Positions 9,900-31,664 of a stretch of DNA of 31,664 bases are shown here, one piece after another. This DNA comes from a virus. Positions within the stretch are counted from its first letter, which is position 1; each line of letters opens with the position of its first letter. Below the pieces are notes generated by a model that saw only the letters and a list, made by a program, of their open reading frames with translations, did no database searches and had not been told where the DNA came from. A program made the position numbers and the translations under genes. The DNA lies in the IMG/VR virus record IMGVR_UViG_3300049450_000043, positions 1-31,664 of that record. The stretch is one strand, 5' to 3'.

Positions 9900-10493
9900 C
9901 TATAACCTTTTAAGAGCCCGGGCACGTCGCATTTCCTCTCGGCTGCAGGTCCGACATCGCCGCTCACCATCCGGTTTGATGTGGAGGTTTGCGCCACTCA
10001 GCGGGTGACCGTGCTTGCAGTGAGTCTTCCTAGCATTGTGGGCGCCGGTCTCGCCGCGACGAATGTTCTCAAGATGGCTGACCGGTTCAAGGTGCTCAGG
10101 GTTCACGCAGGCTCGGTTGCGACACAAATGATCTAGCTCAAGCCCTTCAGGAATGGGCCCGTTAGTTCGTTCCCACATCCACCGATGCGCCTCCATTAGT
10201 TTGCCGTGAATCGCGACACGTCCGTAGCCGCCCCGGTTACCAGCCGTCCATTCCCAGCAGCCGTTCTCGCGCTGTCGAATATGACGCTCCGGCAATGCGA
10301 GCTGTAGGTGCTCGACATTGATGCAATTCCGAACTCCGCAGATCTGAAGAACCTGTACGCGATCAGGGATCGGCCCCCTCGCCATCGTCCATGCGTAGCG
10401 ATGGGCGTACCAGAACTTGCCCTTCACCATCCGCTGTCCGTATCCATCGCCGTTGACGCCCGGCCACAGCTCGCATGGACTGTTGGCGGCCAC
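9900..10493 (-). CDS. HNH homing-type endonuclease with duplicated domain, antisense in tail operon (197 aa)
   Basis: A minus-strand gene (GTG start at 10493, TAG at 9902-9900) sits between the major tail gene and the tail chaperone gene, against the direction of both. Two related units are visible: residues 7-66 and 79-139. Both follow the plan CxxW, GYG, AHRxxW, GPIP, CxxxxCxNxEHL. Unit 2 is canonical HNH_3, with His122 in ELDHLC, Asn131 and His134. Unit 1 has lost the first His (Gln50 in VLQICG), so it is probably catalytically dead. The C-terminus has a zinc-like His/Cys set (Cys159, His163, Cys180, Cys183). The placement is typical of an intergenic homing endonuclease. No Shine-Dalgarno sequence is clear. 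Confidence 0.85.
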   Translation of the reverse strand: MAANSPCELWPGVNGDGYGQRMVKGKFWYAHRYAWTMARGPIPDRVQVLQICGVRNCINVEHLQLALPERHIRQRENGCWEWTAGNRGGYGRVAIHGKLMEAHRWMWERTNGPIPEGLELDHLCRNRACVNPEHLEPVSHLENIRRGETGAHNARKTHCKHGHPLSGANLHIKPDGERRCRTCSREEMRRARALKRL

Positions 10494-19976: not shown

Positions 19977-20748
19977 GATTCCGACTGGCTGGCAACTGCT
20001 CCACTCGAAGTTGCCGGCTGCGGCCATCAAATCATTGCCGAAGGATGTCTATGGCGTCGCGGGCCTAAGTGATGTCAACGAAGGCTTTCTGATCCAGCGC
20101 CTCTTTGCGTCCGGCCTGTCTTGGGAATGGCGGATCGTTCGCCAGGACTACCTCGGAGCTGAGGATCGCGCGGTGCGAGACAAGGATTACACACAGCGCT
20201 ATTACCTGTTCTCCGTTCAGGGCGATCTGACCATCGAGGGACGCATGTTCCACGGATCAGGGGCAAGCGATAACCGCAAGGTCGACGCTGCAGCAAAGGG
20301 GGCCGCCACCGTTGCGTTCAAAAATGCCTGCAAACTCGCCGGTCTGACTATCGAGCTTTACAAGGACGGCAAGGCCATGGATCACATCTATGAGGCTCGC
20401 CAGATGTCCAAAGCGGAGACGGTTGACGAAGCATTGAAGGAAATCACAGACACATTCGGCGATCCGGCTCAACCGGCGCAGAGCACAGCACCCCTTGCGG
20501 CCGTAGACCCCGCTGACGGGGCGAATATCGCCTCTGTTGTGCCTGCGTCTGATGAGGCGGATGACGAACGCCAAGACCTCTACGTCCTTGCTCGCACCTT
20601 AAAGATTCCGCGGACTGTACTCGAGGTCAATAACAAAATTGCGAAACAGAGTCTGACCGCTGTGCGTCGCGAGTTGATTCTCGCTCATGCCAGGGACCAT
20701 GGCCCTGCTTGCTTGCATGTGGCGGAACTCGCGGGACTTAAGAACTGA
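19969..20748 (+). CDS. Single-strand annealing protein, Rad52/Sak-like (259 aa)
   Basis: It probably binds and anneals single-stranded DNA during phage recombination. The start is set at ATG 19969 (MAEIPTGWQLL), with AAGGTGG upstream. The domain fills about 10-150: VYGVAGLSDVNEGFLIQRL, then GLSWEWRIVRQDY, then YYLFSVQGDLTIEGRMFHGSG. It ends with RKVDAAAKGAATVAFKNACKLAGL, the Lys/Ala helix found in Rad52-type annealers. Residues 150-210 are an acidic Ala/Pro linker, as in many phage annealing proteins. A C-terminal helical piece (residues 210-259: QDLYVLARTLKIPRTVLEV) may be a partner-binding module. No exonuclease partner is seen nearby. Confidence 0.7.
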   Translation: MAEIPTGWQLLHSKLPAAAIKSLPKDVYGVAGLSDVNEGFLIQRLFASGLSWEWRIVRQDYLGAEDRAVRDKDYTQRYYLFSVQGDLTIEGRMFHGSGASDNRKVDAAAKGAATVAFKNACKLAGLTIELYKDGKAMDHIYEARQMSKAETVDEALKEITDTFGDPAQPAQSTAPLAAVDPADGANIASVVPASDEADDERQDLYVLARTLKIPRTVLEVNNKIAKQSLTAVRRELILAHARDHGPACLHVAELAGLKN

Positions 20749-20749
20749 C

Positions 20750-21277
20750 ATGCCCTTCACTAAGGAGAACGCCCGCGCAGCCGCCCTCTTGGTTCACCAT
20801 GACCCTCCCGAGCTGCGGTTCCCGAGCTTCTTTGAGAAGCGGGAAGCCATAGACGAATGTTGGCTTTGGACTGGCTTCAAAGAGTGCCATGGGTATGGAC
20901 GTTTTTGGATAGGACCAAAGGAACGATTCGTTCGTGCTCACGTCTATGCGTATGAGGCGCTGAATGGCCCGCTGCCGCAGGGCCAAGTCTTGCATCACAT
21001 CTGCCATGTGAAGCATTGCGTTCGGCCAGACCATCTAATGCCTCTCACACCGGGCAATCATCAGCGCATTCACAAATGGGAAAATCGCGCAACTCACTGC
21101 CCGCAGGGTCATCCCTACACTCCCGAGAACACTCTGATTCGGAAGAGTGGCAAAGGGAAGGGTGACCGAATGTGCCGGGAATGCGTGCGCATTCGGAATG
21201 CTGCGGCACGCGCTAAGAGATCCGTTCACGTCGCAAAGCTAGCCGGCCTCCTCGCGACAGCAGAGGCCCAGAGATGA
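20750..21277 (+). CDS. HNH endonuclease with C-terminal zinc motif (175 aa)
   Basis: ATG 20750 follows the previous stop by one base; the open frame further upstream is discarded. It has CWLWTGFKECHGYGRFWIG and AHVYAYEALNGPLPQG, then the HNH core VLHHICHVKHCVRPDHLMPL with the expected His and Cys pairs. The C-terminus has HCPQGHP and CREC, a zinc-like set shared with the endonuclease at 9900-10493, so the two are paralogs. The canonical Asn of the second HNH position is Arg here (CVRPDHL), so activity is uncertain. Confidence 0.8.
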   Translation: MPFTKENARAAALLVHHDPPELRFPSFFEKREAIDECWLWTGFKECHGYGRFWIGPKERFVRAHVYAYEALNGPLPQGQVLHHICHVKHCVRPDHLMPLTPGNHQRIHKWENRATHCPQGHPYTPENTLIRKSGKGKGDRMCRECVRIRNAAARAKRSVHVAKLAGLLATAEAQR

Positions 21278-21782: not shown

Positions 21783-22006
21783 TGGAAAGAGATCGCTGGC
21801 CGAAGCCTCTGCGTGGTGGCTTCCGCCTAGACCTCAACCGAGCAACCGAGAAGGCAGCGAAGACTGCCGCTCGCGCTGCAGATCGACCGCTGATGAGTCA
21901 CCGCCTTAAGATCGGATCTCAGACCTACACAGCGTTTGACGCGCATCGAATCATCGAGCAGGCGAGCGATGAGGAGCGGGCAAGGCCCGGCCATCCATGC
22001 GGTTGA
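21782..22006 (+). CDS. Small basic hypothetical protein (74 aa)
   Basis: ATG 21782 overlaps the previous stop by one base. The N-terminal half is basic and helical (LNRATEKAAKTAARAADRP) and the second half is SHRLKIGSQTYTAFDAHRII. No known motif. It overlaps the following HNH gene by 10 bases. Confidence 0.5.
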   Translation: MERDRWPKPLRGGFRLDLNRATEKAAKTAARAADRPLMSHRLKIGSQTYTAFDAHRIIEQASDEERARPGHPCG

Positions 22007-22446
22007 GATCCCCGATCAAGCAGCGTGGAGCAATAGCAGAGCGCTGGGAGCGCTGGCATCAGCGCAGCCGCATGGCGGTCATGCATCGAGCGCAATTCAG
22101 TTGCGAGGCGTGCGGGCAGCGCATGAGACCTCTTGAGTGGCATCACCTCGTCGGACGCAACAACAAGGGTGTGGGGGAACCATTTTGCTCAACGCCCGAG
22201 CTCACCGTGGGCCTCTGCTCAAGCGGGTATGGGCAAATTGGTTGCCATCAGGGCATTGAGAACGGCGTCTACAACGGCCTGCGTGATTCCCTACGCATCG
22301 ATGGTCTGGCGCGTCTGTGCGCGTCCTACGGCCTCGAGATCCCCGTGCTGGAGGATCCGCTCGACGGGATCAGAGAGGCCGTTCGCAGGCTGGAAGACGT
22401 GTACGGCTATGACTCGGCCACCAACTCAATTGTGCGAATGGAATGA
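21997..22446 (+). CDS. HNH-type nuclease-like protein (149 aa)
   Basis: ATG 21997. The sequence has a basic N-terminus (MRLRSPIKQRGAIAERW), then CEACGQ (zinc pair 1), EWHHLVGRN (the HNH His-His-Asn pattern), and TVGLCSSGYGQIGCHQGIE (zinc pair 2). This is a phage HNH nuclease layout. The position among replication and recombination genes would suit a junction-processing or repair nuclease, but homing-type activity is equally possible. The C-terminal 50 residues are helical. Confidence 0.7.
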   Translation: MRLRSPIKQRGAIAERWERWHQRSRMAVMHRAQFSCEACGQRMRPLEWHHLVGRNNKGVGEPFCSTPELTVGLCSSGYGQIGCHQGIENGVYNGLRDSLRIDGLARLCASYGLEIPVLEDPLDGIREAVRRLEDVYGYDSATNSIVRME

Positions 22447-22697
22447 GCAACTTGGACCACAAGGCAACTGGTTCGGGGATGCGAGTCAGTGAGCGAAATG
22501 GCCCTCCTCTCCGGCCATTCTCTGTGCTCATTTCGGGACAATGGGCGATCACCGAGGAACGCCTAGCCGAGATCATCGATGGGGCGCTTCATGATGTCCA
22601 TCTTTGTGCATGTGCTGACCCGCGCCAGTTTTACGCACTGACGGTTCGCGAGATACCCGAAGCGCGAACGTCTGCGGGGCAACCTGACAACACATGA
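22443..22697 (+). CDS. Small hypothetical protein (84 aa)
   Basis: ATGA overlaps at both ends (with 22446 and with 22694) indicate coupled translation. The product has a disordered N-terminus and a core ISGQWAITEERLAEIIDGAL followed by LCACADPRQFYALTVREIP. No known family is recognised. Confidence 0.5.
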   Translation: MSNLDHKATGSGMRVSERNGPPLRPFSVLISGQWAITEERLAEIIDGALHDVHLCACADPRQFYALTVREIPEARTSAGQPDNT

Positions 22698-23245
22698 CCT
22701 GGACGCGCCTAGAGCCTGGCTTTCCTGAGCACCCGAAGATCCTTGCTGCCGGCGAGCGTGCGGAACTCCTGCACATCCACGGGTTGATCTACTGCAACAA
22801 GTACCTGACTGACGGGTTCATTCCTACACTCGCGGTGCGAGGACTTCTGCATTCTCATCGTCGGCCCGTAGAGCGCCTCGTAGAACTCGGAATCTGGGTG
22901 AAAGTGGAGAACGGCTACCAAGTCCATGACTTCCTTGACTTCCAGATGTCAAAGGCCGAAGTCGTGGCGCTCAAGGAGGAGCGCGCTGTCTCCGGTCGCC
23001 TTGGGGGGCTAGCAAAAGCTAGAGCACTTGCTAAGCAAAAGTCTAGCAAACCCCCTAGCGAACAGCCTAGCAAAGCGCAAGCAAATGGGCTAGCCGTTCC
23101 GTTCCGTTCCGTTCCGTCAGGGTCTTTAGACCCCGTTAGAGACAATGCATTGTCGGTTGGAACGGGGCTTAAAAGCCCAACGAACGGGGAGATGCAGCCT
23201 CTCTCAGTTTCCCTAGCCAAGATGGCGAAGGTGGTGCATCAGTGA
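22694..23245 (+). CDS. Replisome organizer-like protein with internal origin (183 aa)
   Basis: The N-terminal 90 residues follow the pattern of phage replisome organizers with a winged-helix domain: MTWTRLEPGFPEHPKILAAG, ELLHIHGLIYCNKYLTDGFI, PVERLVELGIWVKVENGYQV, HDFLDFQMSKAEV. Residues about 90-115 are basic and helical (KEERAVSGRLGGLAKARALA). The segment 105-160 is low-complexity because its DNA contains evenly spaced CTAGCAAA-like repeats, pentamers and dyads. The last residues (SVSLAKMAKVVHQ) form a helix that could contact a helicase loader. An initiator gene holding its own origin would match the lambda O/ori arrangement; that role is inferred. Confidence 0.68.
   Translation: MTWTRLEPGFPEHPKILAAGERAELLHIHGLIYCNKYLTDGFIPTLAVRGLLHSHRRPVERLVELGIWVKVENGYQVHDFLDFQMSKAEVVALKEERAVSGRLGGLAKARALAKQKSSKPPSEQPSKAQANGLAVPFRSVPSGSLDPVRDNALSVGTGLKSPTNGEMQPLSVSLAKMAKVVHQ
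23009..23098 (+). repeat. Iteron-like CTAGCAAA repeats (candidate replication origin)
   Basis: About eight copies of CTAGCAAA or near variants lie at 23009, 23019, 23032, 23043, 23055, 23067, 23078 and 23090. Seven of the eight have a GC-containing core, spaced mostly 11-12 bases apart, close to one helical turn. The copies fall in different codon phases (CTA GCA AAA, then tCT AGC AAA), so the repetition is kept at DNA level and not by a repeated peptide. Confidence 0.65.
23096..23115 (+). repeat. Four tandem GTTCC pentamers
   Basis: GTTCC occurs four times without spacers, immediately after the last iteron-like repeat. A five-base period cannot reflect a codon repeat, so it is a DNA-level feature of the presumed origin. 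Confidence 0.7.
23117..23178. repeat. Cluster of inverted repeats beside the iterons
   Basis: Three dyads follow the pentamers. A GGTCT/AGACC pair lies at about 23121-23132. GACAATGCATTGTC is a perfect 14-bp palindrome at 23141-23154, enclosed by CCCCGTT 23131-23137 and AACGGGG 23161-23167. GGGCTT-AA-AAGCCC is at 23165-23178. All lie within the 3' part of the initiator-like gene. Confidence 0.65.
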
Positions 23246-28373: not shown

Positions 28374-29222
28374 ATGACGAGCGCGGAACGTCAGCGCGCT
28401 TGGCACGAGGGGCATCCAGGGAAAAGGGCTGAGTACATGGTCCGCTATCGGGAAAAGCATCCCGAGCAGCGCCAGATATACAACGAGTTGCGGCGACAAC
28501 GCCCCGATATCAGAATGTGCGCCGAGTGCGGCCAGCAATTCCCACGGACTCGCTCAGATCGAATCTTCTGTAGCAGGAAATGCCTGACCAAAGCCAAGGG
28601 ACGGCGACGCCCTAGGGACAATCGAGACCGCCGCGGATACTTCAAAGTCTGGCGGGAGACGAACCATGAGAAGAGGGTTCGATATGGACTTAGGCGGCAG
28701 GCGAAAGGCGCGTCTGACCGCTTCGCAAAGAAGCGGCTGATCTTAGAACTGCGCCTCTTGCGCAGGCTCTGGAAGTTAAGCCAAGCTCCCAAACCGCACG
28801 GCAACAGGAAACTGGACGGTCTAAATAAGGCTGATCGCAGTCTGCTCAAGAAGACCGGCGGACAGACGGTCATCGCCTATGGGAACTGCGCTTACTGCGG
28901 GCGATTCTTCGTTCACCGGGCAGCTGTTCCCACTAAGTTTTGCTGTGCGAGTCACGGTCACCGCATGAACAGAGGCTCGCGACATCTTGGGGCGCGTAAG
29001 CGGCGGCGGATCGCTGACCGGGACGGGTGGAAATGTCATATCTGCGGCCGCAAGGTTCCAGATCGCCCTTACCGGGCCCTTCCAGACGACCCAACTATTG
29101 ACCATCTGATCCCAGTTGCTTTTGGAGGGCGGGACGCATTATCAAATCTCGCGCTCGCCCACAACAAGTGCAACACCGATCGCGGAACGGGAGGAAACGC
29201 CCAGCTCCGGCTGATCGCCTAG
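28374..29222 (+). CDS. HNH endonuclease with two zinc ribbons (282 aa)
   Basis: ATG 28374. Residues 45-75 form a first ribbon (CAECGQQF, FCSRKC). A second ribbon-like pair lies at about 170-200 (NCAYCGRFF, FCCASHGHR). The C-terminal 75 residues are an HNH domain (KCHICGRKVPDR, TIDHLIPVAFGGRDALSNLA, HNKCNTDRG). The long middle is strongly basic. It overlaps the terminase by 55 bases and stands where a small terminase is often encoded. A homing or packaging-linked endonuclease is likely. Confidence 0.8.
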   Translation: MTSAERQRAWHEGHPGKRAEYMVRYREKHPEQRQIYNELRRQRPDIRMCAECGQQFPRTRSDRIFCSRKCLTKAKGRRRPRDNRDRRGYFKVWRETNHEKRVRYGLRRQAKGASDRFAKKRLILELRLLRRLWKLSQAPKPHGNRKLDGLNKADRSLLKKTGGQTVIAYGNCAYCGRFFVHRAAVPTKFCCASHGHRMNRGSRHLGARKRRRIADRDGWKCHICGRKVPDRPYRALPDDPTIDHLIPVAFGGRDALSNLALAHNKCNTDRGTGGNAQLRLIA

Positions 29223-30649: not shown

Positions 30650-31664
30650 GGGTCATCCTTCCTGGCGGTCGCGCGATTGAGTTCTCTCGGCGCGGGGTGA
30701 ACTTCAACGCTGAGCAGCGCTTCAACCTAGGGCAACTGCCGCAGTTCCTCAACGACTACTACAGCTATTTCGGCTACGGGGGCGCCGTTTATCCGCTCGG
30801 TCTGAATCAGTCCGCGCTGTCCTGGTCGAAGACGGAGGAAATCTCCTCAAGCCTGCCGAACTATATGCAGGCGATCAAGCGCTCACCGCCGGCCTTCGCC
30901 GCCCAGATGGTCAGGGCCTCGGTGATGTCCCAGGCGCGACTGATCTGGCGCAATCGAGCCGATCGCCACACCTTCCGCGATGCCGGTCTGCGAGTCTTCG
31001 AGAAGCCCTGGACGAACGGAACGCAGGGTGAGTTGCTGGGGCGCATGGAATGGCACGCCGGCCTTGCTGGTAATGCCTACGTCTATCGCCAGCCAGGGCG
31101 GCTGAGGGTGCTGCGCCCGGATTGGGTCGCAATCGTCTATGGATCGCAGTCCGAACCGGACGATCCCAAGGGCGCACTCGACGGCGAGGTGGTCGGGTAT
31201 CTCTACCAGAACGGCGGCTTCACTCAGAACAACCGCAACAAGCCGACGGTGATCCTGCCTGAGGAGCTGGCGCACTGGACCCCGCTTCCCGATCCTATGT
31301 CACCCGGGCTAGGGATGTCCTGGCTGACGCCGGCCTTGCGCGATGTACAGGCCGACACTGCAGCGCTTGAGCACAAGCTGGCCTACTTCTCCAACGGCGC
31401 CACTCCCAACCTCGTCATCAAGGCGTCGTCGCTGGTTCCCAATGTGACGCCGACTCAGTTCGCTGAATGGGTCGATACGATGGAGTCGAAGCACAAGGGC
31501 AGCGCCAATGCTTTCAAGACGCTCTACTTGCAGCCGGGCGCCGACGCTACGGTGATCGGCTCCAACCTCGCCGAGCTCGACCTGACCTCGATCACCTCCC
31601 ATGGTGAAACGCGAGTCTCCTACCTTTCGCGCGTGCCGGCAGTCATTCTCGGGATCGCGGCCGG
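30646..31664 (+). CDS. Portal protein, N-terminal and central part (continues at 1-913)
   Basis: The frame opens at TTG 30646, overlapping the terminase TGA (TTGA), and runs without stop to the window end and on into 1-913. The TTG start is preferred because of this overlap; GTG 30697 is an alternative. The sequence has the HK97-type portal plan: a short basic start (RVILPGGRAIEFSRRG), QLPQFLNDYYSYFGYGG, RSPPAFAAQMVRASVMSQ-like helix, LLGRMEWHAGLAGNAYVYRQ, LRVLRPDWVAIVYGS, then the stem region GLGMSWLTPALRDVQADTAA and AYFSNGATPNLVIKAS. Joined length is about 592 residues. Confidence 0.92.
   Translation, partial: MRVILPGGRAIEFSRRGVNFNAEQRFNLGQLPQFLNDYYSYFGYGGAVYPLGLNQSALSWSKTEEISSSLPNYMQAIKRSPPAFAAQMVRASVMSQARLIWRNRADRHTFRDAGLRVFEKPWTNGTQGELLGRMEWHAGLAGNAYVYRQPGRLRVLRPDWVAIVYGSQSEPDDPKGALDGEVVGYLYQNGGFTQNNRNKPTVILPEELAHWTPLPDPMSPGLGMSWLTPALRDVQADTAALEHKLAYFSNGATPNLVIKASSLVPNVTPTQFAEWVDTMESKHKGSANAFKTLYLQPGADATVIGSNLAELDLTSITSHGETRVSYLSRVPAVILGIAA
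31512..31664. repeat. Right copy of terminal direct repeat
   Basis: It matches 1-153 except at 31638 (G here, A at 127). Together with continuous portal reading frame it shows that the contig ends overlap. Confidence 0.95.

Follow-up and report, generated by a model that had tools for sequence, protein, structure and literature searches.

The repeats that crowd the 3′ half of a small gene in this DNA of an actinobacterial-type phage raise the question of where the phage begins to replicate. The window, by which we mean the whole analysed stretch of 31,664 bp, overlaps itself at its ends by 153 bp with one mismatch (1-153 and 31512-31664), and we take it as probable that this phage genome is circular, at ~31.5 kb, with the portal gene spanning the record ends. 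HNH-like genes lie at 9900-10493, 20687-21277, 21997-22446 and 28374-29222. The first of them, recognised as HNH-like by eye, is encoded by the minus strand within the tail module, which would fit a homing endonuclease. To our knowledge, the origins of temperate actinobacterial phages and prophages are mostly unmapped. The preliminary description had proposed an iteron origin inside the initiator gene, and this is still the best reading. We consider 23009-23180 a putative replication origin that the phage carries within the 3′ half of the gene for its initiator, together with a specificity cassette that may be exchanged (probability about 0.82). The evidence is the match of the protein to initiator profiles, a module kept both inside and outside the reading frame, and the co-variation of a protein helix with the iterons, from which we infer the function.

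Judged by its sequence, the 183-aa gene is a member of an actinophage replication initiation protein family. Its product matches phrog_3926 (1.1e-25, residues 1-143) and phrog_2447 (1.2e-20, residues 1-102), both annotated as 'replication initiation protein', and a tblastn search with it matched 118 actinophage records. In the AlphaFold model (mean pLDDT 79.8, residues 1-110 mostly >85) a winged-helix-like domain is followed by a long helix and a low-confidence tail (Table 1). No Pfam family matches the protein at E up to 0.1, and a PDB fold search returned generic winged helices only (best E 0.21, none <= 0.001); neither search places it among Rep-type initiators (Rep_3 and similar).

Table 1. 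Positions of the initiator gene and of the elements of the putative origin in the window
Feature	Position	Strand	Remarks
Initiator gene, 183 aa	22694..23245	+	winged-helix domain 1-86, basic helix 87-118, low-confidence tail
Codons of residues 97-105 (RAVSGRLGG)	22982..23008	+	stretch of the basic helix from which iteron class can be predicted across the family
Iteron 1, CTAGCAAA	23009..23016	+	
Iteron 2, in-register unit around CTAGAGCA	23020..23027	+	weak
Iteron 3, TAAGCAAA	23032..23039	+	
Iteron 4, CTAGCAAA	23043..23050	+	
Iteron 5, CTAGCGAA	23055..23062	+	
Iteron 6, CTAGCAAA	23067..23074	+	
Iteron 7, CAAGCAAA	23078..23085	+	starts 16 bp before the tandem array
Iteron 8, CTAGCCGT	23090..23097	+	weak
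Short tandem array (CCGTT)4CCGT	23094..23117	+	TRF 100% match, period 5
Dyad 1, GGGTC-TTTA-GACCC	23120..23133	.	position of the family hairpin (C-TNNN-G loop)
Dyad 2, GACAATGCATTGTC	23141..23154	.	perfect palindrome
Dyad 3, GGGCTTAAAAGCCC	23165..23178	.	

The eight or so repeats first described at a spacing of 11-12 bp are real, their start-to-start distances being 11-12-11-12-12-11-12, and the codon phase does change along the gene as had been claimed (0,2,2,1,1,1,0,0 for the eight units). Exact TAGCAAA occurs in 3 copies in the 31,664 bp, all of them within these iterons. Compared with 20,000 synonymous recodings that use the phage's own codon usage, the region contains 47 6-mer repeat pairs against a mean of 4.3, and none of the 20,000 recodings reaches 47. 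CTAG is found 6 times (0.27 in the recodings) and AGCAAA 5 times (0.31). The densest short-repeat spot of the genome is likewise here, in the 100-bp windows 23021-23031 with a score of 37, the best elsewhere being 17. The repeat sequence, first described as apparently different from those of lambda O and related systems, is not peculiar to this phage: TAGCAAA/AAGCAAA-type iterons are also present in the relatives L045, L251, L252, L281, L170 and L458.

The run of four GTTCC pentamers noted earlier is present at 23096-23115 as part of the tandem array, and it is one form of a period 4-6 array found throughout the family, occupying the same place as the CCCGN/ACGN/CCCGNN arrays of the relatives. 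In L001, the nearest relative, the unit is CCGTA instead of the window's CCGTT. Of the extent originally given, 23009-23115, the repeats stood and the end did not, as the module reaches ~23180. Three 14-bp dyads, overlooked before, fall within 59 bp of this added part, out of 10 in the whole genome (Poisson P about 1e-6, calculated only after the clustering was noticed). The first is shorter than the family hairpin. As single-stranded DNA, 23116-23182 has an unusually strong fold (z = -3.5 for the plus strand and -3.1 for the minus strand). The AT excess downstream of the array is mild in the window (0.50 vs 0.40 for the genome). Cumulative GC skew, proposed earlier as a check on the origin, makes no turn at 23 kb; its minimum lies near 17-18 kb and tracks gene blocks, so that it lends the origin no support.

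The arrangement of the repeats proved to be conserved. Among ~175 non-redundant relatives, comprising phages, viral contigs and prophages of ~45 actinobacterial genera, nearly all have the same plan ~425 bp into the gene. Bacterial genomes contributed 68 of the loci, from ~45 named genera of actinobacteria; the two records with other labels are metagenome bins. The shared order runs from iterons at 11/12/13 bp through a period 4-6 array (mostly CCCGN) to 40 bp enriched in AT, often with a perfect hairpin. When the strongest period 4-6 array was sought in each locus, 93 of 114 relatives and 62 of 68 prophages had it at this position within the gene or behind it, with a median distance of 425 bp from the gene start and a median length of 23 bp. 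CCCGA and CCCGT dominate among the units, and ACGN tetramers characterise a mycobacteriophage-type group. A minority of relatives have no clear array or hairpin. Two loci (L023, L027) show the inverted order, with the array ahead of the iterons. When the 110 bp preceding the array were searched in 86 non-redundant loci, repeated 6-mers were spaced 11/12/13, 22-26 and 34-37 bp apart; control windows showed codon rhythm only. The distance from the last iteron to the array is almost fixed within each iteron class: GCAAA of iteron 7 in the window is at -13 from the array, and in relatives of the same class it is at -12/-13.

The repeats might be considered purely coding, the DNA of a low-complexity linker rich in Pro, Lys and Ala having no function of its own, given that most relatives have the array within the reading frame. 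However, the repeats exceed the synonymous expectation, iteron spacings of 11 and 13 are not divisible by 3, and the array occurs in all three frames across the relatives and outside the open reading frame in ~20 loci (15 tetramer relatives and a few others). In the mycobacteriophage-type group, whose protein has ~113-125 aa, it is found past the stop codon. The annotations of Guo1, Ardmore and Doucette leave a gap where it lies, and those of Liefie and Piper2020 place small hypothetical genes across it. Since these short-protein relatives keep the array outside the initiator frame, selection acts on DNA and not on the peptide. The probability of a coding explanation is therefore negligible; the recoding, spacing and frame results refute it as far as sequence can.

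When only the array sequence was used for scanning, 46 of 84 (CCCGW)4CC arrays had an initiator domain upstream on the same strand, at a median of 434 bp. The other 38 had no initiator gene upstream, so such arrays also serve other uses. Ten loci with (CCCGA)n arrays and no recognised initiator gene upstream (L116, L142, L145, L154, L156, L180, L184, L185, L189 and L193) often have a GGGCGACCCGAAGGCCGCCC-type palindrome adjoining. In six Streptomyces-like contigs (L077, L083, L086, L088, L173 and L178), GATCTGGATCC-type repeats are found beside (CGGGA)n or (CCCGW)n; possibly these contigs represent a further origin subtype with a reversed array.

The DNA downstream of the array has its own features in the relatives. 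In the family mean, the AT content of the 40 bp 3′ of the array exceeds the locus average by 12 points, and 28% of loci have their weakest 40-bp segment between -50 and +150 relative to the end of the array. Hairpins with perfect stems of at least 8 bp follow the array in 31% of cases, compared with 0.7% of control windows. The stems are free to vary in sequence; of 67 closing pairs 63 are C-G, and the loops are mostly TAAC, TAAA, TGAC or TAC. Array and hairpin could in principle act at the RNA level, by attenuating, terminating or processing the transcript: the array is co-transcribed with the gene, the hairpin is downstream, and the commonest loops TAAC/TGAC/TTAC would read UNAC in RNA. Yet among 75 hairpins a single T-G pair was found inside a stem, all else being strictly Watson-Crick, though RNA tolerates G-U; such strictness favours a role of the DNA rather than of RNA. 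In addition, no T run is present downstream of the hairpin and the array/hairpin region has no match in Rfam. A function in the transcript is thus very improbable. G-quadruplex formation, considered from sequence only as the common function of the array, is possible for (GGGTC)n and impossible for ACGN, so it was rejected as not general.

The closest link between the protein and the repeats comes from co-variation. On training loci we defined the iteron classes GCAAA, GTCAC, GTTCG, TAACG, GATCG, GGGAC and GCATG. Mutual information with the class is highest at residues 101 and 105 (z = 21 at both), followed by 100 (z = 16) and 97 (z = 13). All the class-predicting columns are within residues 97-105 of the basic helix, and none is in the winged helix. 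The pairing is simple: R-M goes with GTTCG, R-K with GGGAC, GxxGG with GCAAA, GNHxRW with GATCG, R-Q plus a small residue with GTCAC, and R-Q/V plus an aromatic residue with TAACG. In pairs of relatives whose winged helices are at least 70% identical, the iteron class is shared by none of the 17 with helix identity <0.3 and by all 29 with helix identity of at least 0.5, these pairs being non-independent and the relatives phylogenetically linked. SGRLGGLAKA in the window goes with CTAGCAAA, and the otherwise distant L458 has SGRRGGLAKA with CTAGCAAA/TTAGCAAA. Among 39 fresh non-redundant loci, 33 were predictable and 23 of these were predicted correctly, against 4.4 by permutation (maximum 13 in 5,000 permutations), in a test that was not fully blind, two class patterns having been corrected after the first scoring (13 of 14 callable right). 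In four loci (L321, L324, L325 and L331) the helix reads AGIKSG instead of AGxxGG and the iterons are GAACAAA instead of GAAGCAAA, a pairing that may be a one-step specificity change.

The helix codons end at 23008 and iteron 1 begins at 23009, so linkage adds to the association. It could even account for all of it, if block-swapped DNA carried both and another protein read the iterons. Three observations argue against this. First, at winged-helix identity <0.35 and helix identity 0.5-0.7, 75% of 12 pairs still share the iteron class. Second, prediction also works for fresh loci that have few 12-mers in common with the training set. Third, residue 101 is Met in 12 of 12 GTTCG representatives, and its codon is usually upstream of the first motif. 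Linkage as the whole explanation is accordingly quite unlikely. The basic helix and the repeats rather appear to change together, like lock and key, on one short piece of DNA.

The array follows a different part of the protein. Its type tracks the winged helix and not the basic helix: pairs whose winged-helix identity is at least 0.7 have the same array period in 98% of cases, those below 0.35 in 39%, and tetramer arrays are confined to one winged-helix group regardless of iteron class. This suggests that the winged helix reads the array.

These observations can be combined into a possible course of initiation at the putative origin. Initiator molecules would bind next to one another on the iterons, using the basic helix behind the winged helix, and the complex would spread from there onto the array. 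The conserved winged helix may contact the array, because array type follows that domain. The weaker, hairpin-forming DNA beside the array would then open and the replicative helicase would be loaded. This helicase may come from the host, since no DnaB was recognised among the window proteins scanned. As the helix codons adjoin their cognate iterons, recombination could swap both as one cassette with the winged helix conserved.

The same sites might instead be an operator or a copy-control (incompatibility) site through which the same protein controls expression of its gene, with replication starting elsewhere. Iteron-plasmid initiators that bind iterons often autoregulate, and a match of protein and iterons indicates recognition, not initiation. 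On the other hand, the sites are ~315 bp inside the gene or beyond it, away from the promoter, and an operator leaves the fixed neighbours, the array and the AT-rich hairpin, unexplained. We regard this alternative as unlikely.

The origin reading may extend to the family as a whole. We give an even chance to a widespread, two-key type of actinophage origin, in which the winged helix reads a CCCGN/ACGN/CCGTN array, the iterons are recognised by the variable basic helix through a simple residue code, and helix and iterons are swapped as a cassette of 100-200 bp. If so, one recombination would change the identity of an origin and make phages independent of each other's initiators. Likely origins could also be recognised from a sequence signature in a large part of the temperate phages and prophages of actinobacteria, and there would be a readable protein-DNA code for picking compatible phage-based plasmid vectors. 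This would also be a natural case of DNA-binding specificity physically fused to its target sites and evolving with them as one cassette. Searches of the open-access literature gave no earlier description of the module or of the helix-iteron code.

Among the closest known systems are the actinophage 'RepA-like' proteins of phrog_3926/phrog_2447, of which the window protein is a member by sequence and whose genes carry the same module. It differs from them in its length (183 aa vs usually 250-300 aa), in a divergent winged helix (at most ~41% identity) and in having CCGTT, not CCCGN. In the extrachromosomal mycobacteriophage prophages Miko, Rachaly and Jeeves, repA and its flanks suffice for replication and the origin is presumed to be inside or beside repA (PMC7157519). 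The initiator is phage-coded there as in the window, but these RepA proteins are of the plasmid type and have 320-350 aa against 183 aa. The BUS of bacterial oriC (DnaA boxes and DnaA-trio; PMC6669920) also has double-strand sites beside a short tandem array and an opening region. In contrast to its trinucleotide repeats, the array has period 5 in the window and 4-6 in the relatives and is GC-rich, and the window family is without an AAA+ initiator.

The preliminary description drew an analogy with lambda O. In lambdoid phages the origin lies in the middle of gene O, where the iterons bound by the initiator are part of its own gene and a duplex-opening region comes next (PMC7466680). The window likewise has tandem iterons inside the initiator ORF (23009-23097 within 22694-23245). 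However, its initiator shows no homology to lambda O, as it has no Pfam match at E up to 0.1 and lambda O is absent from its PHROG matches, and no gene-P-like partner was recognised. In the window family, moreover, the units are 11-13 bp apart, their sequence varies widely with the basic helix, and a GC-rich array of period 4-6 stands between the iterons and the putative opening region. The putative origin is therefore best read as lambda-like in plan and different in its parts.
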